Source: Fusarium oxysporum f. sp. lycopersici 4287
Taxonomy: Eukaryota > Ascomycota > Sordariomycetes > Hypocreales > Nectriaceae
NCBI RefSeq assembly: GCF_000149955.1
Contig: NC_030989.1
Span: forward strand, 3,171,839-3,235,838
Direction of reading: 5' to 3'
DNA: 64,000 bases
Made by a program: the position numbers and the translations under genes. Below are positions 2,268 through 54,164 of this stretch, piece by piece; the first letter of the stretch is position 1; each line of letters starts with the position of its first letter. Under the pieces are notes generated by a model. It was given only the letters and a program-made list of their open reading frames with translations, searched no databases and was not told the DNA's origin.

Positions 2268-2306
2268 CGGAACCACCGCCCCCGCAAGCCGACCTCGGCC
2301 GTTCCG
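2268..2306. promoter_or_regulatory. CGG-N5-CCG palindromes upstream of the propeller gene
   Basis: CGGAACCACCG sits at 2268-2278 and a variant, CGGCCGTTCCG, at 2296-2306. Both are CGG-N5-CCG inverted triplets, the type of site bound by dimeric Zn2Cys6 regulators. The same AACCRC core recurs in two other promoters of this locus (9838-9848, 13723-13733 and 13765-13775), which argues for a shared regulator. The site is about 360-370 bp upstream of the start codon at 2641. Confidence 0.5.
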
Positions 2307-2406
2307 CCACCCACCTCCGCTTCACGCGGCATCTCCATCACGCGGAACTAAGAAGCGCATTAACAACGGGGACTGGACTCAATTCTTCAACGAAAATTGA
2401 TCATGC

Positions 2407-2454
2407 GGGATGAATTTCTTGACCATACGGCGGTTCCTTCAAGAAATTCATCCC
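2407..2454. repeat. Perfect 16-bp inverted repeat with 16-bp spacer
   Basis: The arms at 2407-2422 and 2439-2454 are exact reverse complements (GGGATGAATTTCTTGA against TCAAGAAATTCATCCC). The spacer, 2423-2438, contains CGGCGGTTCC, close to the CGG-N5-CCG motif of this locus. The structure lies about 190 bp upstream of the start codon at 2641. It could be a cruciform, a double operator or the remnant of a small insertion. Confidence 0.85.
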
Positions 2455-2640
2455 ATGTCCACGGTTCTACCCCAGCTTCTATGCTGATCCCAAGTGCGGA
2501 GAAAATCTGGGGAAGCATGCAGCGGAATTATTGCCGACTCCAGACTAGGATATCGTGATGGACTATTTAAAGAAGAGTGGATAATGGCCTAAATCTTTTT
2601 TCCATCAGCAGATCAACTTCAACTCCTCATTCTTCTGCCT

Positions 2641-3969
2641 ATGCACTTCGAAATGGCAAATCTTAAATCCCTCATCTTTCTGGCTGCTGTTTCGGCTGTA
2701 CGCGCTACTATCAGCCCTGGTAGTCTCGTCACTATCTCTACAGCTGTTGATGCCACCAGTGGAGCTGCCTGGTGGGACCCTCTGGATGAGTACGGCGGCT
2801 ATGACTGGCTTGCTTATCTGAGAAACCCTCCTGGTGGTGCTATTGCTGATAATAATGTCATGGTCGCACGACGCTCTATCTCAGATGGCAGTGTCTCTCG
2901 CGACTGCGTCAGAGATTCAGACGGGGAGTGTGCTGTCTTTGCGGATGATCTGGGACATAACACTCCCAGTATCAGTGTTGACGGCGATGGATATGTCCAT
3001 GTCTTTACAAGCATGCACAACGAGCCGTGGAAGTACTTCCGCTCGTCTCAGCCATACAGCAGCACTCTCGTCAACGCCAGCTCTGATATGCCCGATCAGA
3101 CTGTCCTCATTACATACCCTGTTATCAAGCGTGATGCCGACGGAAACCTGTGGCTGATCGTCCGAGGGCAAGCATCTGGTGATGGCTCCGCAAGGGGTGG
3201 CTACTTCTATAAGTACACGACGGACAACAAGAAGTGGACCCGCGTGAGCCTCTGGGCGTACAACAAGGGCTACTCTGTATACCCCGATGATATCGCGTTT
3301 TCGTCTGATGGAGATGTTCATGTTCAGTGGGAATGGAGCAAGTATCCCGCGTCTGCTGTGCGCCACCAGGGAAGCTATGTCCGCTATCGCCCATCTACCA
3401 ACTCCTTCACCTCCGCCTCTGGATCTACCGTTTCGACACCCATCACCCAAAACGCCGCCGATATCGTGTATCAGCCTTTGACTTCAGGGGAGACATACAG
3501 CGGCGACATCAACGCTTCACCCGGACCAGCTTTCCAGAGTGCAAAGATGGCTCTATACGAACGCCCCGCTGGCACCGTTCACATCCAGAGCGCCTACCGC
3601 TTCAAGACTTCTACTAGCGGAACATGGCAAGTTCGTCGTGCTACAGCAACATATGGTACTTCTAACCCTTGGACGCGTGAGATCCTGTATAGCGATAGTG
3701 AGACCAGCGCTGGTATTGGTATCACTCATGACGGAACAACTGCTCGCATCTACTACAGTCGCTCTTCAGCCAGTGCCTTTGTGCTGGAGAATGTCGGTGG
3801 GGCTGGCTGGACCAATACTGCTATTGAACCGGCTGTTGGCAAGAAGGTGCAGCGTCTTCAGGCTTTGATGAGGAGTGATGGAACGGATGTCTTGTACTTG
3901 GGTGCCCCAACGAATGTTAACTCGACCACCGGAAGCTTGTATCTATTGACTGTTGGCGGCAGGACTTAG
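2641..3969 (+). CDS. Secreted BNR_4-type beta-propeller protein, candidate uronate lyase
   Basis: This single-exon gene encodes 442 residues, or 438 if translation starts at the second ATG (2653), which gives the cleaner signal peptide (MANLKSLIFLAAVSAVRA). The mature part is a run of propeller blades with Asp-rich turns: DLGHNTPSISVDGDGYVHVF, then KRDADGNLWLIVRG, then YPDDIAFSSDGDVHVQWEWS. This pattern fits the BNR_4 repeat family (PF15892), whose fold is found in ulvan-type lyases of PL24/PL25. It is also the fold reported for a Fusarium oxysporum rhamnose-glucuronate lyase (PL42, recalled from memory). The likely role is extracellular cleavage at glucuronate in plant gums or arabinogalactan proteins; a sialidase-like hydrolase cannot be excluded. 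The promoter carries the locus motif and an inverted repeat, and regulator and sugar-transporter genes lie downstream. The fold call is good; the substrate is inference. Confidence 0.7.
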   Translation: MHFEMANLKSLIFLAAVSAVRATISPGSLVTISTAVDATSGAAWWDPLDEYGGYDWLAYLRNPPGGAIADNNVMVARRSISDGSVSRDCVRDSDGECAVFADDLGHNTPSISVDGDGYVHVFTSMHNEPWKYFRSSQPYSSTLVNASSDMPDQTVLITYPVIKRDADGNLWLIVRGQASGDGSARGGYFYKYTTDNKKWTRVSLWAYNKGYSVYPDDIAFSSDGDVHVQWEWSKYPASAVRHQGSYVRYRPSTNSFTSASGSTVSTPITQNAADIVYQPLTSGETYSGDINASPGPAFQSAKMALYERPAGTVHIQSAYRFKTSTSGTWQVRRATATYGTSNPWTREILYSDSETSAGIGITHDGTTARIYYSRSSASAFVLENVGGAGWTNTAIEPAVGKKVQRLQALMRSDGTDVLYLGAPTNVNSTTGSLYLLTVGGRT

Positions 3970-4132
3970 TGGCACGATGCCTGTCTAGCATGAGACGCTT
4001 GGATGTAATTTAGTGGAGTGGCCATAGCTGGGGCTTCATCTCGTCCCATATTAGTCAATATGACCCTTCTCATATCTCAAGGGTATTTCCATTCTATCTT
4101 ACATATCAGCGTTCTGTTAAAAACGCCGACCA

Positions 4133-6626
4133 TTACTGCCCAGCATTGTACGCATAGTCTCCATCCTCTGGATACTCTACTGGCATCTCAGGAGTGATAT
4201 TACTAAAGTCTCCGTGAAAATTCAGGATGCTGTTGGTAAAGGACTCATCTGGCCTTCCTGTAGTGTTGAACTGGGACGTCGACATATCCTCCACGCCGAG
4301 TATTGGGGCCGATAAGTATGTCCAGAAGTTGATCTCATCGGGTGCGACCGCTACATCTGAGAGATCGAAGAGTGGCCACGTATCCTCTGGCATCATTGAT
4401 GATATGGTGTTGTGACTCTGCGCGTCGCAAAAGAGTCCTTGTTGAGTATTTGTTGATGTCTCAAAAGCTGCCCAATTGTCGCCCGTGGATTGCGTCCCGT
4501 ATCTAGCTGTATTAGCTGCTGGTCGGTGTTGAGTCTCGTCGCCTATATGAGGTCCATAGACCTGATTCAATCCTCCGTTACCCGTTTCTAGATTTATGTT
4601 TCGAGGACTAGTGTCTTGCATATTTGTATCACCTCCAACGGCAACCAAGCTCCGCTGCGACACGCCATCAGAATCCTGTCTTCGGAGCTGCTGTATGATG
4701 GAACGCCTTCGATCTCGTCGAGACTCCTCTGAGTTGTGATGTATTGGTAGTCGTTGGCCTCCTCCCGCTGATCTCATCATGTCCTTCTCGACAAGATCGA
4801 TAGTAGCATCAGCCAGTTTTGATAGTGCTTCACGAGCTCTCGCGATTCTCTCCCAACGCACTCCAAGTTTCTCAAGTATGCTCTTCCATTGATACAAGCA
4901 GCTCTTGAACGAGATCCAGTCATCTTTTGCCTTGATTCGCGCCTGAGTATTCTTCCAGACCATGAACACGAGAGTGACTCCGCTCATGAATTGGAAATGC
5001 AGGTCTATCCAGGTGAAATCCATCAAACCTTCACTGATACGAAGGTATGATAGCTGAATAAGATCTTTGGCAGCTTCGTAGCATGAAAGCGTTTCAGAAG
5101 TACTCAAACTTGGGCGAGAGGGCGATGGTCTGTAGAGGATGAGCAGCGCTGTACGATACCAGTAGCCCCACCAGTTGACGTTATGACCATCGGAGTCAGT
5201 AAGAGTTAGAGCCACTGAGTTCCAGCCTTTCAATCGCTGAGCTATCTCCTTAGTCCACTCGGTAAGGTCTGTGTCCTCTCCGCTATGGCCTGTATCGTCT
5301 CGCCGTGCTGCATGTAGCTTGTGTACAATCTCACTTTCGAGTTGTTGCAGTTCAAGCCAGTGTAGTATCTGTAGCCGCTTACTCGGTACTAAGGAGTGTC
5401 TCGGCAGATGAATGTCGACAGTAAAGTCGTCAAAAGTGAACGGTCGACCAAGAAGAATATTGAGTGTCCGATCAAAGCTGTATGTTACCCAGAATAGTCT
5501 TCGCTTCGTATCTGCTTCACTTATCCTCTCAATTTCTGTGTCGTTACCAGTTGAAGATATAGCTATTGTGGTCTCTGAGTGATATCCGAGATCAATGCAC
5601 ATGCGCATGCAAAGACCGGAGATATACCAAACCGGCGCAGAAGATGAGTCGAGGATAGAGAGAAGCAACAACAACAGAAGGCATTGCACCGACTTTACAT
5701 TCTTTGTCTGCATGATCAGACTGATATCCTCCATGGCATTGGCAGTGAAACCTTTCGATAGTGTCGTACTCTCATTATGATCGTGGGACATGAACATGAG
5801 AGAGATGGCAAGCACCATGTTAAGCATGAATCGAGTCCACACCTCGCCAGATCCTGGCCGATTATGACCATCTCTGTCGTTCTGGCGACCGTAAAATTCT
5901 GTCACGGCCTTGATAAATTCCTGCTGGTTGAGAATGGGATACTGAACCTGATATTGGCTGAAGAATGTCTCGATGAGGCTACTAGCCGTCTCTCGAGATG
6001 GCAAGGCAATTCTGGTACTACTACTGGAAGGTTCCTTTGGTCCGGTTCGAGCTTCTGTTGTTTCAGATGGCGATTCGAAGTTTGGATAGTTCTGCTGAGC
6101 GGACTCAAGAACTGATCGGACCAAGTACATTCCTAGACTTGTTTCAGCTCGAGTAACTACTATTAATCGTGCATTCATACCGCTTGAAGCTCCGATGAAA
6201 TGAGCATGTCCCTCATCTCCAACACGAATCAAGTCTTGAGCAGGCTCATCGTCTGAGCGCAATGTCGAGGTAGGTGGCGACACTTCAATTGTCGCATCGT
6301 CAACCTCTTGGAGCTGAGCCTCTAGTCGCATGAGTTGAGCTTCCAGATCATGGATGTAGCTCCGAGGATGGACGTCGCCCGAGCGGCCATCCGTGTAGTC
6401 ACAGATGGAGCCTGAGTTTTGACATGGTTGGCATGCAGGAATCTCTATTTCAAGATCAGTAAAATGGATCGACGGAAGACGAATTGTAGAGAAGCTCACG
6501 TGTATCGCACCGCGCTTTGCGTTTGCGACAACGGTTACACGCGTTTATCGTCTATCAAATTGTGAGTAACAGAAGCGTATAGAGAGAGAGTACCCATGAG
6601 TAGCTTACAAAGTACGGCGGATTCAT
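4133..6626 (-). CDS. Zn2Cys6 transcription factor with fungal_trans domain
   Basis: I read three exons on the minus strand: 6609-6626 (start MNPPYF), 6500-6551 and 4133-6444, giving 793 residues. The second intron splits the zinc cluster. Spliced, it reads CNRCRKRKARC, then CQPC, then C with spacing CX2CX6CX6CX2CX6C. A short coiled-coil linker (SYIHDLEAQLMRLEAQLQEV) follows for dimerisation. The middle of the protein is the fungal-specific regulatory domain PF04082: a segment with FFSQYQVQYPILNQQEFI, then WYISGLCMRMCIDLGYHSE and RRLFWVTYSFDRTLNILLGR. The C-terminus is low-complexity and acidic, probably for activation. The gene is convergent with the propeller gene and sits between it and the sugar transporter, so it may control them. 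The target is inference. Starting at the in-frame ATG of the long exon would lose half of the zinc cluster. Confidence 0.88.
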
Positions 6627-7507
6627 TGTCCGCCAAACGTGTCATCATCCTACATAGAATTGGTATCTGACGCGACTGCTTCCCTGCAATGTCTCGTCTG
6701 GGTCACGATCAAAGTCGGAGCCGATCGCTTTGAGTAAAAGTGCGGAGTAAAGTTGGTGTGGAATTCATTCCGCCCCCGCTAACGAAGCAGGGGATCCTCT
6801 TCACCACCCAACTCCTTACGTCGATCATACATACCCTGGAGTGATTTCCTTTGGAACGATAAGTCCGTTTTCAGTGGACTGCTAATTACGGCCTCGGCTA
6901 TATACACACTATTGAATTTCGAGACAAATTACCGATTGAGAGTCAATACAGCACATGGCCTAGGTATGGAATGCAAACCAGACGCAGAGATTTACAAAAA
7001 CTCGATTCTTGTTTCTATTACTGATGCAACTCACAAAAGTTAACATACCAAATCAAAGAGCAGAGTATAAATTGCATTACTTGTCCTTCTGAATTATCTT
7101 TTCTTGTTAATGTCATTTTTCCTTTCAGTTACGCTCATAATATTTATGGATATAGTGCCGGCGAGACAGACTCCATGCGGGTACGTAGTTGTTGGCAGTA
7201 ATTATAGAGTGAGCCGGAATGAAACTTAAGAGGCTGATATGGAACTTGCACCAAGTTCCTTAACATATGAAGCCTTATACGCGGACGATGTAGGCGACAT
7301 CCCATGGTGGAGATTACTGAAAGCTTGAACCGAAGTAGCTACCTGTTTGTCGGCAGAAATTGTCTTTGGGCGCCCATACATCTTAAAGACCAACTGATAC
7401 TGCCATTACTACGTTGATAACTATCCTGCATTCACTAATATCAGCAGTTGGCAAATGAAATGAGCAACAAGTGGAATGGGAAGGTTAAAGTATGTCCAAG
7501 ATGTGAC
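6627..7507. other. Intergenic region before the assembly gap
   Basis: This is the promoter of the minus-strand regulator plus about 700 bp of AT-leaning sequence with no coding frame that I can support. The tract 6780-6860 has several CCCCGC-type GC boxes. Confidence 0.4.
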
Positions 7508-7695
7508 NNNNNNNNNNNNNNNNNNNNNNNNNNNNNNNNNNNNNNNNNNNNNNNNNNNNNNNNNNNNNNNNNNNNNNNNNNNNNNNNNNNNNNNNNNNNN
7601 NNNNNNNNNNNNNNNNNNNNNNNNNNNNNNNNNNNNNNNNNNNNNNNNNNNNNNNNNNNNNNNNNNNNNNNNNNNNNNNNNNNNNNNNNNNNNNN
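7508..7695. other. Assembly gap (188 Ns)
   Basis: An unbroken run of N occupies 7508-7695, downstream of the transporter gene and in intergenic sequence on both sides. No gene appears to be cut by it. The true length is unknown. Confidence 0.99.
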
Positions 7696-7843
7696 ATAAA
7701 AGCATCAATTATTTACCCTATGGTAGATGTTGACACAAATCCTCATGCTTACCCAGGAATAGCTCTCATACAGTCAAAGCTTCGCTCCAAAGGAATGAAG
7801 CCCTAAGCTATCCTTAGAAGTTGCGTCCTCGACACGAGCCGAA

Positions 7844-9592
7844 TTATACAGACTTATCCCGAATCTCAACTCTCTCCTCCTCGGTACCTAGCATCTGCTT
7901 AGGTGTAGCATCCTCCTCAGAGTGAACATTGAGTGATCCAAAGTGCGAATCTAGTTCCTCAAGAGTCTTGTTCTTGGTCTCGGGATAGCAAGCATAGACA
8001 AGAATGGCGGCGAAGACGTTGAAGGCCATGAAGATGAAGTAGACTCGAGGTCCAATGCGGGAGACAGCAACGGGCCAAACCTGACCGACGATGATCGAAC
8101 CGAGGGATGAGCCGGAGGAGGAGATGGCGAGACCCTTGGAGCGGCAGTTGGCGGGGAAGATCTCGGAGGCGTAGATCCAGGCGCAGGGACCGAAGCCCAT
8201 ACTGTCTGTGAAGCTGTTAGCATGTTGGCTGCTTATTGGGTGATTTTATAACTTACATCCAACAGTAAAGAAGAAGATAAAGAAGATATTGACGTAGTTT
8301 GCACTCTGGTTGTTCTGGCCGGGATAAGCAGTCTGCAGAGCACCATTGATCTGAATTGTGTTAGCAGCTGTAAGTCAGACTCGTTCGAAGAAACTCACCA
8401 TCAGACAGAAGGCCATGATGATAGCACCAATACCAAGTGAATGTCTTCGACCCAGCTTATCAATGAAGAACATGGCCGCAACAGTGCAAACCACCTGCAC
8501 AGTTCCATCGATGCCAGAAGCAAGGAGACTCAATTCTTCAGAGGTACCAGCGGCGATAAAGTTGGTGGGGAGATAGTATCGAATACCAGCAGCACCGCTC
8601 ATCTGCTGGAGGAAAGCGAGTGACCAAGCGCGCCAGAGTCGAGACCAGAGTGGCTTCTGCTGAATGAAGACACGGGCTGAGGTGATGGAGTTTTCTTGAT
8701 GCCAAAGGATGTTTGCGCGGATCTCGTCAAGTTCGGGTTGGATTTCGGCGGCAGAGAGACCACGAAGCTTGCAGAGGGACTCGCTTGCGGCTTCGACTTG
8801 ATCTGTTTCGACAAGCCATCGAGGGCTGATAAGAGTTAGCGGGGAGCGTAAAGGACAACTATGATAGACATACCTCTCAGGAATGAACAAGACACCACCG
8901 AGGAAGAGAAGAGCAGGGACGAACTGCATGGCGGTTGAGAGGCGCCATTCAAGGTCAATACCATTGCCGTAGTCCCAGAATGAGTAGCCATAGCCAACCC
9001 AGAAAGCCATAGAGATACTGCAACAGTTAGCACTCTAGTCGCTCGATTCGAAGGCCAACTTACCCAGAGACAATTCCAACCTGATTAGCGGCAACGTAAA
9101 GACCTCTATGCTTTGCTGGCGAAATCTCACTGAGATAAAGCGGGACAGCGGTGGAAACAACACCCGTTCCAACACCAGCGATGATTCGTCCAATAACCAT
9201 CATAGCCAGGTGAACAGCACCAGTCTGAATCGCAGCTCCGACGCAGAGGAGGCAGACACCACCGAAACCAGCCCATCGTCGACCGTACTTGTTGTTAATG
9301 GGACCCGCAATGAGGGCGAAAGAGGCGAATTGACCAGCGGCGAAGATAGCTGTGATGAGACCCTTTTCGCTGGATGAGGGATGGTCGAGGGCTTTGTTGA
9401 AGCCAGGGGACACGTAGATGGTACTCAGAATGCCGATATCGTATCTATAACCCGTTAGTCTCTGGCCAATGCGTGTTGTGAAGTCTCAACCTACCCCCAG
9501 AAGATGGAACCCATCGAAATGACGAAGATACTGAAGAAGAGCCAGCCGCTCATCTTGCCTTGCGCGGGCATTGTACCCAACTCGGTAGTCAT
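7844..9592 (-). CDS. MFS sugar transporter
   Basis: This is a plasma-membrane proton-coupled sugar importer of the sugar porter family. I read six exons: 9495-9592, 9064-9444, 8874-9017, 8399-8825, 8257-8350 and 7844-8205. All junctions keep frame and give 501 residues, the normal size for 12 membrane segments. Signatures are in order: YDIGILSTIYVSPGF after segment 1, NKYGRRWAG in loop 2-3, GRIIAGVGTGVVSTAVPLYL with SEISPAKHRG in segments 4-5, PESPRWLVE before the central loop, QMSGAAGIRYYLP in segment 7, DKLGRR in loop 8-9 and PETKNKTLEELDSHFG at the end. The gene shares a ~400-bp divergent promoter with a reductase-like gene. That promoter carries the CGGAACCACCG motif, so the transporter probably imports the product of the neighbouring extracellular enzymes. 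The specific sugar cannot be read from sequence. Confidence 0.92.
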
Positions 9593-9805
9593 CTTGATAA
9601 CAAACAGTTCGAAATAATGATTGAACAAGCTGTGAAAACTCAAGTGTTCGTGCTGTTGAGTTTCCCCGCAAGAAAGTCTGGGGAAGGCATACTTTTTAAT
9701 CCTTTGTCAAATGGCTCTAAATCTGGGGTAGCGAAGTCGGGTTCTGGATTGAAACAGGGATTTCATGGTATGATTCCGCGTTGCGGGGTGCGCTAAAACA
9801 AGAGA

Positions 9806-9848
9806 CGGAGCCTCCGCTTCCTTCTCCTCACTCACCACGGTGGTTCCG
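9806..9848. promoter_or_regulatory. CGG-N5-CCG sites in a divergent promoter
   Basis: CGGTGGTTCCG at 9838-9848 is the exact reverse complement of the CGGAACCACCG site upstream of the propeller gene. A second CGG-N5-CCG palindrome, CGGAGCCTCCG, lies at 9806-9816. Both sit between the transporter start (9592, minus) and the reductase-like start (9987, plus), where one dimeric Zn2Cys6 factor could drive both genes. Confidence 0.55.
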
Positions 9849-9986
9849 TCTGGGGCTCTTGGAATAAGCTATCCCGCTTTGCGATAAGTTCTAAAGTTTG
9901 GTTCATAATGAACTGACTATTAGATGCAGGTTCAAGTCTAACGATTTACGAAAAATACTGATTATCACTTGACCCAATTCCCTGCC

Positions 9987-10844
9987 ATGACCGTCAACGG
10001 CACCAACGGGGATTCCCCGTCACTCGGCGAACTTAAGCATATCTCGTCGACTCGCTTAACTCCCAGCCTCAGCATTCATACATTCTCTATACTCACAAAC
10101 CAAAATTTCAGTCGGAGCTTCCGTCCCAGTCAGCACCTGACACTACAATTCCCGCCTGATCTAGATCCTGTGTCGGGACCCCAGAACTTATCGGACCAAG
10201 AAAGATGTCTTTCTTTCACACCTTTCAATTTGCAGTATGCTGAGGACGGAAGTATTGAGAGCATCTCGCTGATGGCGCGCAACGGCCGTGTTACCGGCTT
10301 GCTGGGACTCCCGAGGCCACATGGACCGTTGGTCGCTAAGATTGTTGAGGTCGGTGGCGGGTTCCCCTCAGAGGTACTGGAACAAACTGGTCAAGCATTG
10401 TGCATTGCTGGTGGTACTGGAATCGCGCCTTTCATCGCCATGGCGGCAGCCAAAAACTCCAACAGCAGCGCCAATGACCTGAAGCCTAGTCTCATTTCCA
10501 GCATTCGCGGCGATGACTTTGGAGTTATCGAGTATCTCTGGAACCACGAAATACTTCACCCGCAAGATTGGAATGTAGTTCGCATTTTCGTGACGCCAGG
10601 AGAAGAAACTGGTGGGATGGCTTCTGGCAGGTCACAGAGCTGGTGGCGTCATCGCTTCAAGGAGCTCTTACATGACCATAGCGACAATGATGTCTTCCGC
10701 CTTGGGAGAATGGAGAAGGATGGTTTGGAAGGGTTCAGTAAAGATAGAGATGGCCCAGTGCTCTTTTGTGGGAGTAAGCAATTGGAGTGGCAAGTCAAAA
10801 TGTGGTTTCTGGGAAAGAAGAATGTCCATTGTACGGAAAGATAG
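9987..10844 (+). CDS. Ferredoxin-NAD(P)H reductase-like flavoprotein domain protein
   Basis: This single exon encodes 285 residues. The frame is open further upstream but the first ATG is at 9987, so I start there. The N-terminal half has features of an FAD-binding beta-barrel (SIHTFSILTNQNFSRSFRPS), and the C-terminal half contains the nucleotide-binding signature CIAGGTGIAPFIAMAA and the closing VLFCGSKQLEWQVKMWF. This is the FNR-like arrangement seen in flavohaemoprotein and ferredoxin reductases. There is no haem, iron-sulfur or transit-peptide motif, so it would be a stand-alone electron-transfer module in the cytosol. Its partner may be the FAD oxidoreductase encoded convergently at 11134-13529. 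The classical RxYS flavin motif is weak, so its redox activity is uncertain. Confidence 0.65.
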   Translation: MTVNGTNGDSPSLGELKHISSTRLTPSLSIHTFSILTNQNFSRSFRPSQHLTLQFPPDLDPVSGPQNLSDQERCLSFTPFNLQYAEDGSIESISLMARNGRVTGLLGLPRPHGPLVAKIVEVGGGFPSEVLEQTGQALCIAGGTGIAPFIAMAAAKNSNSSANDLKPSLISSIRGDDFGVIEYLWNHEILHPQDWNVVRIFVTPGEETGGMASGRSQSWWRHRFKELLHDHSDNDVFRLGRMEKDGLEGFSKDRDGPVLFCGSKQLEWQVKMWFLGKKNVHCTER

Positions 10845-11133
10845 TGAATAATTGTCATGGTGTTCCACTCTGAAATTGTTGAAGAAACTATAATACAACC
10901 CCAGAGCCTAGTATTATTATTCCCCATTTAGAACATGGCGCAAAAACGAATACAACACTCTGAATATCTCTGTACAGTTGAGAGCTTGTAAGATGTTTGA
11001 TAGGTAGCAACGCAGTCCGAATTATGAGAAATTTATGGATGGTAACGACAAACTAAGTCCATAGAAGATGACTCAAGACCGCATAAACCATAAACAATTC
11101 CATGTATAATATTGATTCCAAGCTATGTGTCAT

Positions 11134-13529
11134 CTATTCGTAAGCCCGTACTTCAAAAATACCACCAAAAGCATTCTCATCACCATTCAGCTCCAGAACC
11201 TCAATACCAAGCTCTTTCAAAGTCCTGCTAGACTCAATGACAACCTCCCTGCGCGACAAGTGATTCTCATCTTCAACATACATCTCTCTCTCTTCACCAG
11301 AGAGGTCCAACAGACGCCACTTCTTTACACAGAACGGAATGGTCCGCTCTGGATGACCTCTCAACACCGACTCGAGAGCGTGATCATAGTCTGTATCAAA
11401 GTGAACAACAACCTTGTTCACCTTCACAGGCGTATCCCAACCAATCTTGAGAATCTTCCTACCAAAGGAGTCGGCACGAGGAACCCAGCAGTTGGTTCTC
11501 TTGGTAGGACGGGGAACGCCATTGCGGATGTTCTCAACTCCCCAAGCCTTCAGAGGTGGATCCAGCGTCAAGGCGAGGTTTTGACCCATGGGCCTGCGAA
11601 CTGGGGTCCAGCGCTCGAACTCATCGACTCCAACGTCACTAGGTGGACTCTGAGTACATTCGTGCTCAACAGTCATGAGAGCTGATACGCGTGTCTTTGT
11701 GGTACAGAGTGCCACTGAATCGTTCTGGAGGAAAGAGAGGAAGACATATTGAGTCTGAGGGTTCTCAACTTTGAAGTCGATAACAAGATCATTCTGTCCT
11801 GGTACCAGCGGAAACTTGGTCTCAGCCAGGATGACCTCGGGCGTGTAGTTGTAAGGCTTCTGAGAACCTCGAAGCTGAACCGTCAATACCGTGTTGTCGA
11901 CTGACATAGCCGTGATAGAGAAGGTAGGAACAGGTCCTTGTGAGAGGGGAAGCATCTGTGCAAGACTTCGGACCAGTACCTTGGGTGGACCATCGGGTGG
12001 AAGCTGCGATAGCTCAAAAGAAGATCCTTCAATCTTGGAGGCTGAGCGAACAAGATCTTCAGGGTCGTTGAGTTTGTAACCTGGAATGAACTGGCCAAAC
12101 CGCATGAGCTCGCGTTGGAAGTTCTTCATGTTGTTCTTCACGAGCAACTCCATGGGGTCGACGCTCTGTTTCTTACATAGAGAAGCGGCGATACCCAAAG
12201 CGTTGGCGTTGGCTCCGCACGTTGCCATGACACGAGTAGATGCGAAGGCGACGTGGGATGCTGACATGATGCGGCCTCCGTACATGAGATTGGGAATCTC
12301 GGAGCACACCATTGAGGAGAATGGTATTTGGTAGACGCCTGCGAGTTTCAGTAAAAGGAGGCCTCTATTGGGTGATAAACTTACCCTTTGAGTGCCACTG
12401 AGTGCAGCCGTCGACTTCAGAGAAGACACCATCAGCGGGGTGGAGATCAAGAGACCAGCCTCCAAAGGACACAGCATCAGTGTGATAGCGCTGCTCAACA
12501 ATGTCTTGCTGCACCATAATAGTAGGCCCAACTGTAAATGTTAGACATGCTTGCACTAATCTCAAAGATCAACTCACTGAACCTCCTACTCTCCCTCTTC
12601 CCCGGAATAGTCCCAACCCACTCAAGCGTCAAATTCTCTGCCTCCGGAAACCTCCCCGAATTCTTAAAATAATCCCAAACTCCATACACAACCTTCCAAA
12701 GCTCCCACTTGATCTGCTCCGTATCATGAATAGTATCAAGTCTACCACCATACTCAATCCACCAAAGATTACAGCCCATCTCTTTAGTGCTAAAGCTCTT
12801 GAAGCGAGGAATTTCTCCTTCGACGTCTTTGAGAGCGTAGGCTGGTGCAACGTACTTGACAGGCTTGCCGGTGTCTTTGGTGTAGAAGTAGATGGAGTGG
12901 CCGAGAAGATGTCCGTACTCGGAAGATGGGGCGAAGAGTTCGTTGAATTCATCGCGCTTTTCGGCGCCGATTCTGAAGGGGGCGCCGGCGAGGAAGGAGA
13001 GTGTGCCGTCGCCGGTGCAGTCGATGAATTGTTGAGATTGGACGGTGAACTTGAGAGAGGATTGGGAGTTGAAAGCGCTGACGGAGCTGATTCGATCCCC
13101 ATCTTTATCGCAACCAATAAGAGCTGTGTTGAGAAACAACTGAATATTCGGCTCCAGTCTCACTTTCTCAAGAAGAATCGTATCAAGAATTAGAGGATTT
13201 CCCTCAGGATTTCGATACAAATTGTCGAGTAAAATTTCATCAACAAGACCGCCCTCTCTCGCATAGCGGTTGTTGTTAAACATATGCGACGTAGCTCCAA
13301 GGATCCATAATCGGACCTCACTGGAAGCATTGCCTCCGAGAACAGGTCTATCTTGGATGAGAATGACTGATACGCCATTTCTCGCTGCTGCTATGGCAGC
13401 GATAGTACCAGCTAGGCCTCCACCGCAGACACAGAGATCTGAGTTCAAGGTGCGGAGCTGGAAGTCGCGGCTTTGTGTTGCTGGCTCGCGACGGAGGACA
13501 GGATCGTGGGATATCCTTGCAGGGGCCAT
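11134..13529 (-). CDS. FAD-dependent oxidoreductase (PF12831 type) with C-terminal beta domain
   Basis: I read three exons: 12578-13529, 12385-12531 and 11134-12338, with 46-nt introns, giving 767 residues. The N-terminus has the Rossmann fingerprint VCGGGLAGTIAAIAAARNG, then DRPVLGGNASSEVRLWI, and later FIDCTGDGTLSFLAGAPFR. This order is characteristic of the FAD_oxidored family PF12831. Residues from about 640 form a separate domain (FGRKILKIGWDTPVKVNKVV, ending FEVRAYE) that resembles a discoidin/galactose-binding-like beta-sandwich; that part is my inference. In bacteria, PF12831 proteins are common in polysaccharide-utilisation loci but mostly uncharacterised. No signal peptide is visible, so it is probably intracellular. 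It is divergent from a Zn2Cys6 gene, and the shared promoter has two copies of the locus motif. Confidence 0.8.
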
Positions 13530-13722
13530 GGTAGCGTAATCTGAGTGCTAACTGGCTAGTGGAGTGTTATAATTTGTGTTCAAGTCAAGCTAGGATGATG
13601 AGAATGAGTAGGTTACATGCTATGAAATAGTCTCTTTTATTACTCGCAATCGCAAAGCCCGATGATCACCCCCATACAGCCGCCTGCAATAAGTTGTTAG
13701 CCAATCTGACGAGCAATATCAA

Positions 13723-13775
13723 CGGAACCGCCGTTAGCTCATCAACTTGCCACTAACACTTTTGCGGTGGTTCCG
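13723..13775. promoter_or_regulatory. Two CGGAACCRCCG sites in a divergent promoter
   Basis: CGGAACCGCCG lies at 13723-13733 and CGGTGGTTCCG (reverse complement of CGGAACCACCG) at 13765-13775, 42 bp centre to centre (four helical turns) and in opposite orientation. They are about 200 bp from the start of the FAD oxidoreductase (13529, minus) and 250 bp from the start of the second Zn2Cys6 gene (14028, plus). This is the densest cluster of the motif and would allow autoregulation by the adjacent factor. Confidence 0.6.
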
Positions 13776-14027
13776 TCGGACATTCCACTTTTTCCCCGCA
13801 ACCGAACCCAGAGACTCACATCGGCATGAAGGAGCCGCCTTTGCTCGGTTATTCGATGCTCAGCTAAAGCCATTCAATGGAGAAATTGGTCCTCGCGGTA
13901 TATCCCTGAGCCCGGTTGAGCTTTTTTTTTGTAGGAATTGGCAATTCAGCACTGGACAGTGTTAGGCTAGTGACGTCGAATTGGCATCCAATAAGCTGCA
14001 GAGCCCACCTTACCGCCCTGTAAAACC

Positions 14028-16001
14028 ATGAGCGAGACTGGGGAAGATGTCCAAGGGCGACCCTTACGGAATGTCACCTTACGAGTATCTCAAATCTTTT
14101 CGGCCTGTACTTTCTGTAAAGCTCGGAAGATCAAGGTACGTGTATCGTTATACACTCGGACCCGACCAAACCTCATTTTTTTCTAGTGCAATGGTGCAAC
14201 TCCATCATGTGGTGGCTGCGTCAAGTTTGGCCGACAAGCAACATGTTCTCTCTCAACGGAATCTCCAAACCGTGGACGAGATTATCCAAATTATCTTCGA
14301 CAAAAGATTGATGCTGCCCAACAACGCCTCAGCCAACACAACGCTAGACAGAACAATCTCACTTCGCCGTCAGATACTGAGCGGTCCAACCGGAATGAAT
14401 CAGCAGAGACGCATCAACGGTCTATCATCGATTCACTCATAGCAGACATCGGAGCACTTCCCATCATAGCATGTTCATATCCATCAGCCGCAGAAGGGCC
14501 GACACTATCTTCACTTGTGCTCGCGACTGCAAGCACCAACCAACTCTCATCAGCCCTGCGGTTAACTCAAGCTGATGATGTTGCACCATGTTTACCCAAG
14601 GAGTCAACTGCCTTGAGCCTGGCAAAACATTACTTTGATCAGGTCTACCCACGAATACCTTTCTTCTCCATCCAGGGCTTCTGGGTGCAGTTCGAGCATG
14701 TCTTCTCCGGCGTTGATCCTCCTCGCGAGCGAGGACGAGACGGTCCACCGCAAGATCCAGCGAGTGTTCTGACGCCGAGTCAGGATGATCTTGATCGATC
14801 TTCGATAAGCCATGGGTATAGCTATTTTACTGTTCTATTGGTGCTAGCTATATCAGCTTCCAGTCTGTCACGAAGTGCCGATAGCGTTATATCTACCCAA
14901 GCTCAACGGCTCTTCCGTACAGCATTGACTTTTCGCGAGTCCGCAATCTTACCTAACACAATTATTGGTGTGCAATCAATCTTGTTCCTGATACAGTTCG
15001 CCACTCTCAACCCTTCGTTACTTGACGCCTGGTATCTCATCGGTGTCGGCATGCGCATGTGCGTTGATCTCGGGCTGCATCAAGATCCACGGCCTCTTGA
15101 TTCGGTCGCGACAAGTCTTTTGGAAACAAGACGCCGTCTTTGGTGGAGCATGTACTCTTTCGACCGGTCCATGAGTTTGGGATGTGGACGACCGACCGAG
15201 ATATCTGACTCGGCTATAAACGTATCCCTGCCCACGTTCAGAATTGAGACATCGGCAACGGCTGTCGAGGTTCACGGCTATCTACAGCGCTATCGTGCAT
15301 TGCAGATCCAGTCCGAGATATACAATCGCCTGACTAAGTCTCCAGGCTCTGAAACAGGTGATGCGCAATCAGTTCATGAACAACTCAGCAAGAAGTTGGG
15401 CGATTGGAAAGACTCAAGCTCACAGCTACCGAACAAGACTCTCATTGAGAGTGAATGGCTGATGGGTCGCATGTTGCTTCTTAGACCATGCAGACTCTTA
15501 CCTCAACGCACTTATGACGAGCTTGGTGAACTATGGCAAGCAGCTGTTGGATTCATCGCGATATATCGGCGGCTGGTGGAGTCTAACTCGATATTCTACG
15601 TGCAGATTGCCTGCGAGAAAGTATACTGGGCTGGTCTTATGGCGTTCTACAGCTACTGGCAGCTCCGCACCAGGATCAATCCAGATGCCAATACAATGCG
15701 ACGACTCGATGTTTGGATGATCGTCAAGGATGTCATGTTCATCCTTCGGGCGTTGAGTGAGAGATGGGAACAGGGGAAACTTCTGTGTGGGCGGTTTGAT
15801 GCCGTGAGCACTCGTGTCCTTGAGCTATCAGAAAACGATAGGGGAGATGGTTTGCCTGTTGAAATGCCTGTCGAGTTACAGAATTTGGAACAGTATACAA
15901 GCTTGACTGTTGTGTGGGCGTCGGGCGATAATATGGATCGGAGGGATGAACATGCGCTGGACACAAACGAGCTGCGACACTTAGTATCTGAGATGTTATA
16001 A
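14028..16001 (+). CDS. Zn2Cys6 transcription factor, candidate local regulator
   Basis: I read two exons, 14028-14135 and 14187-16001, giving 640 residues. As in the other regulators here, the intron splits the zinc cluster. Spliced, it reads CTFCKARKIKC, then CGGC, with a final cysteine at spacing 8 (CX2CX6CX6CX2CX8C). A heptad-rich linker follows (residues about 80-100). The fungal_trans domain begins near residue 200 (HYFDQVYPRIPFFSIQGFW) and has WYLIGVGMRMCVDLGLHQDP and RRRLWWSMYSFDRSMSLGCG. The gene is divergent from the FAD oxidoreductase, with two CGGAACCRCCG palindromes between them. That position makes it the best candidate to bind the motif and control the 2.6-14 kb locus; this remains inference. 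The start at 14028 is the first ATG in frame with the zinc cluster. Confidence 0.88.
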
Positions 16002-18840: not shown

Positions 18841-19758
18841 CTAGGGAGTTGATGTTCGATGGGAAAGAAACCACTGTTCGGCAAATTTGACTGCCTGAGG
18901 TAGCGAGAACAAATGGCAGTTTGCTGCACCAATTTGGCCCTTGGTCACACTGTTTTGCTCAACGAGATCCTTCCCCAGTTCCAAAAAGTCTTCCTCGTTC
19001 ACACTGACGTCTGATACAGTCGCCCATTCTCTAGCTCCGTTGACTGAAATTGCGAATGAGATATCAGCCTTTGGTGAGTTGACTCTGTACTCTGCAAGAT
19101 GAAAGCAGGTACAGCGATTGAATCCAACGCCGATGAGTAAAACCTTCGCGCTTAGCTCCTCCAAACGAGCTAGGGGACTCTTTTCCCCCAGCATACTGTC
19201 CAGACCATGTCCGTCTGTGATAAACGTCGCATTTGCACCAATTGCAGCAAACGAAGTATGAGGGTGCATACTTCTCACTGCACCTGGCCATGTTCTGACT
19301 GTCTCAGCCAGCACACCCATGCTCTCACTTCGAGTTGTTTTAGGGTCAAATGCAGGTCGAGTTTCGCGAATAGTCTGCCACCATTTCTCTGGGACGGGCG
19401 GGTTGACCCAATTCGATGGATCCGAGTTGCTGCTGGTGTGTGTTGGAACAACAAGAGTTCCGTCGGGTGTAAGGATGTCGAGAAGAGCTTGGGTAAGAGC
19501 CTCAGCCCCACCATTGATCCATCCCATGCTCTTAAGAGAGCAATGCACAAGAACTATATCTCCTGGTTTGAAGCCGAGATTTCGGAGGTCCTGAGTAAGA
19601 GAAGGCCTGGTGCATAGAGGTCCAGTAAGAGGTGGGGGCATCATAGCTACTACTCGGGGATTAGAAGATTGGCAGAAGTTGGAGATTGTCGAGAAAATGC
19701 AACAATAGTAGCGAGGCAGAAATGGAGCCAGCCAAAAGAATGCACTGATTGAAGCCAT
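18841..19758 (-). CDS. AAC(3)-type N-acetyltransferase homologue
   Basis: The gene has no introns and encodes 305 residues, or 267 from the second start at 19644. The family is Antibiotic_NAT (PF02522), acetyl-CoA-dependent enzymes that in bacteria acetylate the 3-amino group of aminoglycosides. Landmarks are clear: LGFKPGDIVLVHCSLKSMGW near the N-terminus, DGTLVVPTHTSSNSDPSNW, RSESMGVLAETVRTWPGAVR, the conserved HPHTSFAAIGANA and LLIGVGFNRCTCFHLAEYR. The first 38 residues are hydrophobic and absent from bacterial members. They could be a signal or membrane anchor, or untranslated if MMPPPL is used. Fungi do not need aminoglycoside resistance, so the substrate may be another amine. Lack of introns and bacterial kinship suggest horizontal transfer. 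The flanking HET gene and AT-rich sequence mark an accessory region. Confidence 0.85.
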   Translation of the reverse strand: MASISAFFWLAPFLPRYYCCIFSTISNFCQSSNPRVVAMMPPPLTGPLCTRPSLTQDLRNLGFKPGDIVLVHCSLKSMGWINGGAEALTQALLDILTPDGTLVVPTHTSSNSDPSNWVNPPVPEKWWQTIRETRPAFDPKTTRSESMGVLAETVRTWPGAVRSMHPHTSFAAIGANATFITDGHGLDSMLGEKSPLARLEELSAKVLLIGVGFNRCTCFHLAEYRVNSPKADISFAISVNGAREWATVSDVSVNEEDFLELGKDLVEQNSVTKGQIGAANCHLFSLPQAVKFAEQWFLSHRTSTP

Positions 19759-21590
19759 AGGCTGGAAACTAGCTTATATGGATTTCCCACGCTAAACTAT
19801 TCGCGCTCCCCCGCCCACTCGAATTTTCAGGACAGATTGTTCGCCGGCTGAGTCATAACAAATTGACGCAAAAGGCTCCAACTAGTCTAAGCAGAGACGG
19901 ATAGGGGTTTATGACCTGACATTAGTAGATTGATAAGGAAAGATTTATTATAGATTATTTCAATATTGATAATTATTTTAATCCCAAGTAGGGACCATTA
20001 ATAGTATTTTAGCTTTCTCCATGTTCAGATGACCGAGACTGTAGACTAGGGCTCTTTACCTCAAGGCACATCAGACGCAGAGTATTATTAGTATCAACGC
20101 CCCTGCTGCCGTGCTATATAGCTATATAGCTATATACGCCCACAGAAAGTATCGCCGATGACGCGCTTAAGACAGGATGAACCATCCAGGGTTTACAAGC
20201 TGATCAGCCACGCTGGAATTCATCCATGGCATCGCTTTTGTTGAAGCTCCAGGCCATTTGTCGCACCACATTGCCCGCCCACTCAAATCGGCCTCACCAT
20301 CCAAGGTGGTCTGAATGCATCTGGCCATCGAAGTATCCCCGTGACAAACATAGATCCTGTGATGATTCACAACTCCTGCTAGAAAGAAGCGCAACTCTTC
20401 GTTGCCCCATGTTTGGCTAATACACCTAAAGGGCATACCATTTGAAGGCATAGATTTAAATATTGCTTGTCAAATGGATCCACTGCTTTATGGGGTTCTA
20501 GGGAAGCTGGACTAGGTTTATTGCAGCCGAAGGAAGAATAGAATGGAGACTTTTGACAAAGTGGTAAAGTTTCTAACCGGAGTTCCTAGGAGTTGGTCCC
20601 GAGGGGGATTCTTATAAAATTAACTTCCTCACAACTTGTTCTACATTGAGAGCGAGAGTAACAGAAGTAGCCGTGTTTAATTGGTCAACTAGCATCCGGC
20701 AGTTGACTAAGGTCGCTGGACGTTAATAACAAAATGCGTGCATAGGACAAGCGAGTCTAGATATCGTAATAATCACTACATATGTCAGGCTGGAAATAGC
20801 AATATTTTGAGCAGATTAGGTACAGCATCATCTGGTCAATTTGTTTCGTAGCAATTGCAACGTCGCAATGAAACATTTCGTCTAATGCCAAGCCATTCGT
20901 GACGCGCATACAAGACAATAACCTCGTATTAAAATGACGATCATCCGAGTTCCGTCGCGCCTATGCTCGCCTGAAATGACTTTCAATGCAAAGCAATTAC
21001 CTATATCTCGGCCGAGAGACATCTTCAACGTCATTACGTTCCTGTCAAAGCGTCTTCTCCATGACATCACTGTAAACACTTCTAGGCCCTCGGCCCACGA
21101 TTTCTTCACCCAAAATGGTCAAGCGGTAACGCGATAAAAATAGTAGCTATTTATATCACAGGACCCTGAATCTTGCCAGCTTTTTAGGCCTGGGCCCTTC
21201 TGGATTTAAATCCAGGCTATTGAGATGCTGTGTTCAATTGAGATAGGACCATAAAAAAATAGCCTGAATAAGGGGATGATCTAGCTGAAGGGCCATGCAT
21301 GCGAAATGCCGAGTTCCGGACGGCACGTAGAATACGAGATTTGGGGATCGTGACCCTCAAGTTCCCCACAAACAACAGGACTCGAGGGCGGATTTGTGAG
21401 GGATCGGCGAATGAGGCGATCGACATGCGCTCGAGCATTTTCTGGGGACAATCGCATTACAAAAAGGGAGGGTTTCCTCAATGAAAGTTCACTCTTGATC
21501 TCAACAACAACTCAACTTCACTACCATTCAGTACTATAATTCCTCTCTCAACCTAAACAAAACACCAACCTTTTCTTCACAACCACCAAA
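19759..21590. other. 1.8-kb region without a supported gene
   Basis: It holds an AT-rich tract (19915-19990), a short tandem of TATATAGC units near 20117-20140 and the promoter of the small secreted protein gene (CT-rich leader 21490-21590). Short open frames at 20167-20451 (minus) and 20934-21137 (plus) lack recognisable homology or splice context. The minus one could be a gene relic, but I cannot support it. Confidence 0.45.
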
Positions 21591-53395: not shown

Positions 53396-54164
53396 TGTGA
53401 AAATTGATTGGTTGATTTTCGAGTCTGGGGGTAAAGGTGGTCTAGGCGCTGCTCGAAGAAACAATATATAGATAGTAAATTAAAATGTGAAGTACGTAGA
53501 GCGGAACTCCGCCGAGGTTTGGTTGAAACCCGGATTATGATACGAGGGGTTATCGCGAACCCCGCTTTTGACAAGTCTTATCGCAGATCTGAGATAAACG
53601 CTTCAGCTTCGGAACTTCCGGTCGGAAAGTCCGTAGGCGCATGATGCGCTGTTAGTCTTTAAGCTAAACATGATAACCGAGTCAACTCCAGCGAGTCGTC
53701 TCTGTTCCTGCGTCACTAATCTGGATTAGATATATGAGTTACAGGGTTCGGAACACTTACTGAAGCTCTCGTGTCGTTCCGTAGTGATGATTTACCCCAG
53801 ATAAGGCAACTGATACGTGGGGACGGAATGGGGGTGACGGAACGTGGAATCTGGGGTAGTAGCTAAGCTAGTGTTATCGGCATTCCTTGTTTACGACAGT
53901 TCTACAGCAGTCGAGATATCGTTCCGACATGTATTGGTTGTTTGAGGGGTTCAGCTGAGTTGTCAGTTGGAGATTAGACGAGGTTTTGGAGTGAAACTGA
54001 CGTTTGGGGATACCCGACGCTTGTGGTTGGATAGATATAGAAAGCCCATGGTTCGCCCCCTTGGCTTGTTTGCATCATCATACTTGCTTCTTTCAACTAA
54101 TAGAGTATACACGATCTTGCCTTTTACCTCTCAACACTCATTCTTCTATCTTTATCAAGACAAC
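53396..54164. other. Divergent promoter region with several CGG/CCG pairs
   Basis: This 770-bp stretch separates the starts of the split hydrolase gene (minus) and the flavin monooxygenase (plus). It contains CGG-N5-CCG at 53610-53620 (CGGAACTTCCG) and a nearby CGG-N9-CCG, possible Zn2Cys6 sites, but not the AACCRC core of the 2-14 kb locus. No gene is present. Confidence 0.4.

Follow-up and report, generated by a model that had tools for sequence, protein, structure and literature searches.

We analysed a 64-kb stretch of the Fusarium oxysporum f. sp. lycopersici 4287 genome (61.24 Mb, 71 contigs), hereafter the window, in which the 11-bp site CGGAACCRCCG recurs in the promoters of neighbouring genes. 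The first of these genes, on the forward strand at 2641–3969, encodes a BNR_4 propeller protein (PF15892). It is followed by TF1 (4133–6626, reverse strand), a Zn2Cys6 transcription factor with N-terminal introns, and by a multi-exon sugar transporter of the major facilitator superfamily (MFS; 7844–9592, reverse strand), with PF00083 on the exon at 8378–9031, a start at 9592 and a stop taken from the sequence. Next come a single-exon nicotinamide adenine dinucleotide-binding, ferredoxin-reductase-like reductase (9987–10844, forward strand) and an oxidoreductase of 767 amino acids dependent on flavin adenine dinucleotide (FAD), assigned from its gene model and Pfam (PF12831; 11134–13529, reverse strand; exons 13529–12578, 12531–12385 and 12338–11134). 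TF2, a Zn2Cys6 factor of 640 amino acids and the proposed regulator, lies at 14028–16001 on the forward strand (exons 14028–14135 and 14187–16001; gene model and PF04082). For the reductase, PF00175 scored slightly under its cut-off (21.4 versus 22 bits) and NCBIfam gave weak matches to electron-transfer subunits. A run of N occupies 7508–7695.

The closest match of the BNR_4 protein was from F. agapanthi (97%), as was that of the FAD protein (96%), while the closest TF2 matches were from F. subglutinans (93%) and F. oxysporum f. sp. zingiberi (98% over 72% of the length); the TF2 matches also include relatives from F. venenatum. The unit was not seen a second time in its own genome: the FAD and BNR_4 protein queries each returned their own gene only, and the BNR_4 family model added a single gene, at C12:749094–750006.

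The CGGAACCRCCG site in the window and the genome

The initial annotation had described CGGAACCRCCG as a palindrome and placed four copies in three promoters, namely that of the BNR_4 gene and the divergent transporter/reductase and FAD/TF2 promoters. All four are present, at 2268–2278 (forward strand; CGGAACCACCG), 9838–9848 (reverse strand; CGGAACCACCG), 13723–13733 (forward strand; CGGAACCGCCG) and 13765–13775 (reverse strand; CGGAACCACCG). The window holds no further exact copy, and the exact site is confined to these three intergenic promoters, which serve five genes. The CGG and CCG arms are indeed palindromic, but the AACCR spacer is asymmetric and each site therefore has a direction. 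The three weaker variants also exist: CGGAACGGCCG at 2296–2306 (reverse strand, one mismatch) and CGGAGCCTCCG at 9806–9816 (forward strand, two mismatches) keep CGG-N5-CCG, but AGGAACCGCCG at 2428–2438 (reverse strand, one mismatch) lacks the first CGG and is probably not part of the operator.

Together, the three promoters (982, 395 and 498 bp) make up 1,875 bp, or 2.9% of the window, and hold all four exact sites. Dinucleotide-shuffled windows contained 0.02 exact sites on average and at most 1 (100 shuffles). The k-mers common to the three promoters include three 10-mers and four 9-mers, all within the motif; when triples of segments were drawn at random from 16.5–64 kb of the window, 29 of 2,000 shared any 10-mer and 5 of 2,000 shared at least three. 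CGG-N5-CCG occurs 24 times in the window versus 7.9 in shuffles, with 6 of the 24 in the three promoters (binomial P = 5e-5). Among the CGG-Nx-CCG spacings from N0 to N15, none of the 15 besides N5 was enriched in these promoters. The commonest CGG...CCG spacings across the window are N2, N5, N8 and N11, a threefold rhythm that we read as coding sequence. These P values are optimistic, as the motif was picked after the data had been seen.

A single 8-mer outside the motif, CCCCGCAA, is also common to the three promoters. It is found at 2280–2287, 9664–9671, 9781–9788 and 13794–13801, so that four of its six window copies lie in the three promoters, and the copy at 2280 starts two bases past the 2268 site.

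Genome-wide, we found 50 exact sites where base composition predicts approximately 46 (the reversed pattern occurs 133 times), and CGGAACCRCCG is thus not globally enriched. With the genome total at chance level, the signal lies in the local clustering: four exact sites fell within 11.5 kb in 1 of 20,000 random placements. The genome scan that had been suggested to assess enrichment at the locus therefore supports clustering of the sites and not a dispersed regulon. Surroundings were examined for 26 of the 46 exact sites elsewhere, including three pairs with identical flanks. The base preceding the site is A in all four in-locus exact sites, compared with 7 of these 26. Two exact sites 3.9 kb apart (C4:4732536 and C4:4736426) were treated as chance, their flanking genes being unlike the unit; three of the four flanking open reading frames (ORFs) scanned have Pfam matches (nucleotidyltransferase, amino-acid permease and GDSL lipase). 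At two further genomic sites without a long ORF over them (L031 and L036), one of three flanking ORFs scanned was a GH76 gene.

Five genes carry the site, which agrees with the lower figure of the five- to seven-gene unit originally proposed. Extension beyond these genes found no support: the TF1 promoter (6627–7507) contains no CGG-N5-CCG, GGAACC or GGTTCC, and positions 1–494, upstream of a pectate-lyase-like gene, contain no CGG-N5-CCG and one GGTTCC (at 323).

Convergent doublets in three promoters

Each of the three promoters contains two CGG-N5-CCG sites facing each other. Direction was read with CGGAACC outward, and the weaker halves were given the direction in which they match better; for 9806 this is our own reading. 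In the BNR_4 promoter, the exact site at 2268 forms the first half and its partner starts 28 bp away at 2296; the starts are 32 bp apart in the transporter/reductase promoter (9806/9838) and 42 bp apart in the FAD/TF2 promoter (13723/13765), leaving gaps of 17, 21 and 31 bp, respectively.

This arrangement is nearly unique. The 61-Mb genome holds four places where an exact site is followed after 10–40 bp by CGG-N5-CCG. Three of them are these promoters; the reversed control gave two. The opposite doublet orientation occurs nowhere in the genome (control also 0). A perfect CGGAACC...GGTTCCG doublet of the searched spacing exists once in the genome, between FAD and TF2 (13723/13765), against 31 per strand for the reversed control. 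All four in-locus exact sites have a partner within 60 bp, compared with 1 of the 26 exact sites examined elsewhere; among CGG-N5-CCG sites in 200 kb of genome, 4 of 51 have one. At least four pairs within 60 bp appeared in the window in 13 of 5,000 random placements.

Narrow text searches of the literature returned no description of such a convergent CGG-N5-CCG doublet operator, and the matches listed for CGGAACC were unrelated papers only. CGG-N5-CCG itself appears in an excerpt of a paper on AtrR, as a candidate site, alongside two others, in the promoter of a drug pump.

Encoded functions and conserved linkage

The structure model of the propeller protein (predicted local distance difference test (pLDDT) score 85) has GH145-type proteins and FoRham1 as its nearest folds and PL24 and PL25 ulvan lyases as the next nearest, and its relatives in the PDB belong to GH145 and PL42. 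FoRham1, the founding member of PL42, is an L-rhamnose-alpha-1,4-D-glucuronate lyase of Fusarium oxysporum that acts on gum arabic. In a hand-counted alignment with a two-residue offset, H106, H126 and R175 of the propeller match FoRham1 His85, His105 and Arg166, whose roles an excerpt of PMC8377490 gives as the base-acid His, the second His and the neutralising Arg. None of the three varies across an alignment of 17 fungal and bacterial sequences. Y51 lies at the position of FoRham1 Tyr34, according to the same excerpt the equivalent of His48 in BT3686. The propeller thus resembles FoRham1 in its BNR_4 fold, His/His/Arg residues and Tyr, but is only distantly similar in sequence (E = 3e-6 over a partial alignment; 16% identity in the fold match). 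The GH145 alpha-L-rhamnosidase BT3686, although it ranks high among the neighbours by both sequence and fold, has the catalytic His48 where the propeller, as judged via the FoRham1 alignment, has Tyr, and the GH145 NCBIfam model scored 71.8 bits versus a cut-off of 700. Because PL42-type residues are present and the GH145 His is replaced by Tyr, an exo-lyase is likelier than a hydrolase. The N-terminus resembles a signal peptide, and we predict that the protein is likely a secreted, PL42-like exo-lyase for a uronide-capped glycan; given the low sequence similarity, we do not call it a PL42 member. The FoRham1 orthologue may be the other BNR_4 gene of this genome, that on C12.

PF12831 was detected on two large ORFs of the FAD gene (173.7 and 65.5 bits; cut-off 27). 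Named bacterial PF12831 FAD-dependent oxidoreductases among the matches listed share 53–55% identity with its product over nearly the full length. Among the matches listed from protein databases, PDB and NCBIfam there was no characterised close relative, with PDB matches reaching no further than the FAD-binding stretch at the N-terminus (best E = 0.002). The model of the enzyme is of low confidence (pLDDT 67.7) and was left out of the functional reading; Foldseek matched mostly its FAD-binding part (fumarate reductase group), along with a low-scoring C-terminal CBM32-like part. Several Fusarium relatives are named trichothecene C-8 hydroxylase in databases. Trichothecene C-8 hydroxylation is carried out by the P450 TRI1. 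The F. graminearum entries FGSG_04781 and FGSG_04785 are labelled chromosome 3, whereas the TRI1/TRI16 cluster of that species is located on chromosome 1 in an excerpt of PMC5907747; an excerpt of PMC6480918 had no bearing on the question. A trichothecene link is thus not supported, and the label looks like a propagated error. Among the literature matches listed, there was nothing relevant on this FAD family in sugar clusters.

The unit is coherent by three lines of evidence independent of the motif: fungal locus tags, a fusion model in Emericellopsis and bacterial loci. In F. graminearum, the tags of BNR_4, FAD and TF2 are FGSG_04781, FGSG_04785 and FG05_04786, and an excerpt of PMC5310905 names FGSG_04782 and FGSG_04786 as Zn2Cys6 factors; tag order and naming together fit the gene order of the window. 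FAD and TF2 tags are consecutive in seven genomes among the matches listed (F. avenaceum, F. graminearum, Stylonectria, three Sporothrix and Cladophialophora). One protein of Emericellopsis cladophorae (P0038) is a BNR_4 protein continuing into a stretch related to TF2 (58% identity over 26% of TF2), and is best read as two adjoining genes fused by annotation. Linkage of TF2 to its putative targets therefore recurs in several genera (seven genomes and the fused gene model), though not in all.

Of 107 prokaryote loci with a BNR_4 relative, we examined the 80 best (L053–L132). A relative of the FAD enzyme lies within the fetched flanks in 35 of these 80, and in 26 of the 55 with full flanks. Linked loci occur in Actinobacteria, Paenibacillus and Alteromonas and include cases from Streptomyces, Microbacterium, Isoptericola, Promicromonospora and Labedella (for example, L126:10001–20588, L063:9914–19639 and L110); many are closely related to each other, and so do not represent 35 independent cases. 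In eight linked genomes checked (4.0 to 9.2 Mb), the FAD gene is single in seven and double in one. Since it is mostly single-copy, we estimate, without control loci, that chance proximity is below approximately 1% per locus. A partial scan of neighbours at five of the 35 loci found sugar ABC transport parts in four and a sodium symporter in the fifth, as well as AXE1-type esterases in three; nearby regulators were of the IclR type in three (one weak), AraC-type in one and LacI-like in one. Judged by predicted gene content, the bacterial BNR_4–FAD pairing with sugar transporters is an unnamed catabolic module. The pairing suggests a cross-kingdom pathway that could be worked out in non-pathogenic bacteria.

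Elsewhere in the window, the gene at 18844–19773 belongs to the aminoglycoside 3-N-acetyltransferase family (PF02522, 303 bits), here in a fungal genome, and adjoins a HET-domain gene.

The candidate regulator and its relation to known systems

The locus encodes two Zn2Cys6 factors, as had been noted at the outset: TF1 and TF2 each have PF04082 and a complete zinc cluster. The Zn2Cys6 cluster follows the pattern CX2CX6CX5-12CX2CX6-8C, which TF2 matches after splicing (CTFCKARKIKCNGATPSCGGCVKFGRQATC). All six cysteines of its zinc cluster are conserved without exception in the 16 relatives (of 103 matches) that were aligned, its PF04082 middle domain scores 76 bits versus a cut-off of 23, and PF00172 is precomputed for many relatives. 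Scanning viral contigs with the TF2 alignment revealed no relative. TF2 rather than TF1 is our favoured candidate for binding the doublet, because it is divergent from FAD with the strongest doublet between them, because its linkage to FAD and BNR_4 recurs, because its zinc-cluster cysteines are invariant and because the TF1 promoter lacks the site.

We consider it moderately probable that the five genes (BNR_4, transporter, reductase, FAD and TF2) form one regulon of a locally encoded activator, TF2, acting via the paired sites. A TF2 dimer would read each CGG-N5-CCG site, with the AACCR spacer setting direction, and the two facing sites of each promoter would allow cooperative binding by two dimers. 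TF2 would act by activation rather than repression: upon activation by a substrate-derived inducer, it would turn on the propeller lyase, sugar transporter, reductase and FAD oxidoreductase, as well as its own gene in a positive feedback. The lyase would cut the terminal sugar off a plant glycan capped with uronic acid, an example being arabinogalactans with rhamnosyl-glucuronate caps. The transporter would import a product, and the FAD enzyme and reductase would carry out a redox step on the product. The regulon under a dimeric Zn2Cys6 factor that the initial annotation envisaged is partly supported, by a spacing-specific and promoter-confined site, local enrichment and a coherent, conserved gene unit; of the two factors offered there, TF2 is favoured and TF1 is not. 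More broadly, and tentatively, the unit could be an uncharacterised carbohydrate-catabolic module of ascomycetes and bacteria, made up of a propeller exo-lyase, a PF12831 flavoenzyme and a sugar transporter. The flavoenzyme would act oxidatively or reductively on what the lyase releases, and in fungi the module would stand under a dedicated Zn2Cys6 factor via the convergent doublet.

Several observations weigh against a TF2 regulon. The motif was found after looking, two of the three doublets include an imperfect half, and one doublet lies elsewhere, at C2:1967397, which we treated as chance as there is no ORF longer than 172 amino acids in the surrounding 6.5 kb. A fourth close CGG-N5-CCG pair in the window (CGGAACTTCCG and CGGAAAGTCCG; 53610–53633), its sites at 53610 and 53623 being 13 bp apart, has no link to the unit; it is flanked by a hAT-transposase-like gene on one side and, on the other, by a flavin monooxygenase-like gene and then an MFS transporter. 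In Stylonectria and Cosmosporella, the BNR_4 and TF2 tag numbers are far apart, and no FAD gene was seen in 45 of the 80 bacterial loci. In F. graminearum, null mutants of FGSG_04782 and FGSG_04786 had no phenotype as reported in an excerpt of PMC5310905; growth on the substrate of the unit was probably not among the tests. Further points bear on TF1, the zinc cluster of which is also complete and is followed by what we read as a coiled-coil-like stretch. TF1 lies inside the unit, in F. graminearum the gene FGSG_04782, named as a Zn2Cys6 factor in an excerpt of PMC5310905, adjoins BNR_4, and two of the three doublets pair a strong half with a weaker one. TF1 might therefore bind, alone or with TF2, with one dimer per doublet half. 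We regard this as rather unlikely, given the absence of CGG-N5-CCG, GGAACC and GGTTCC from its own promoter and the recurrence of TF2 beside FAD and BNR_4 in other genera, although for TF1 no search for such recurrence was made.

It is distinctly unlikely that the sites are read by a factor from another locus (for instance, a RhaR/PDR-1 or CLR-1 homologue), which would place these genes in a wider plant-polysaccharide regulon. The unit does resemble plant glycan use, and SYGGRG boxes, the consensus of the carbon repressor CreA, are denser than average in two of the three promoters (8 versus 3.4, 6 versus 1.3 and 2 versus 1.7 by window average). However, RhaR/PDR-1 sites are CGG-N11-CCG in an excerpt of PMC5469009, and this spacing shows no enrichment in the three promoters (1 of 14), while the CLR-1 site is listed in an excerpt of a review as CGGN5CGGNCCG (PMC5468973). 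The motif also stands at chance level genome-wide, unlike a broad regulon, and the other BNR_4 gene (C12:749094–750006) has no exact site within 170 kb. As an observation in its own right, SYGGRG density is 2.4 times the window average in 1659–2640 and 4.6 times in 9593–9987, and is near average in the FAD/TF2 promoter; the raised density would fit carbon catabolite repression. Finally, although the motif was spotted by eye among many possible patterns and its 50 genomic copies are about what chance predicts, coincidence or a functionless relic of promoter duplication is highly improbable in view of the same doublet and orientation in three promoters with unlike flanks, the promoter confinement and the near uniqueness in the genome.

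The proposed TF2 operator offers a concrete, testable handle on an unnamed regulator and ties together genes listed as hypothetical or, in the case of the FAD gene, under the doubtful trichothecene C-8 hydroxylase label. The proposed regulon would belong to the known cluster-specific Zn2Cys6 type, while its doublet operator is unusual and the module uncharacterised. Among known systems, the Gal4-type regulators RhaR/PDR-1 of L-rhamnose and pectin use resemble TF2 in their binuclear zinc cluster and PF04082, and have inverted CGG triplets in target promoters as well as in their own, as at the TF2 locus. In contrast to their N11 spacing, the TF2 unit has N5 with a directional AACCR spacer, convergent doublets and a narrow, local regulon.

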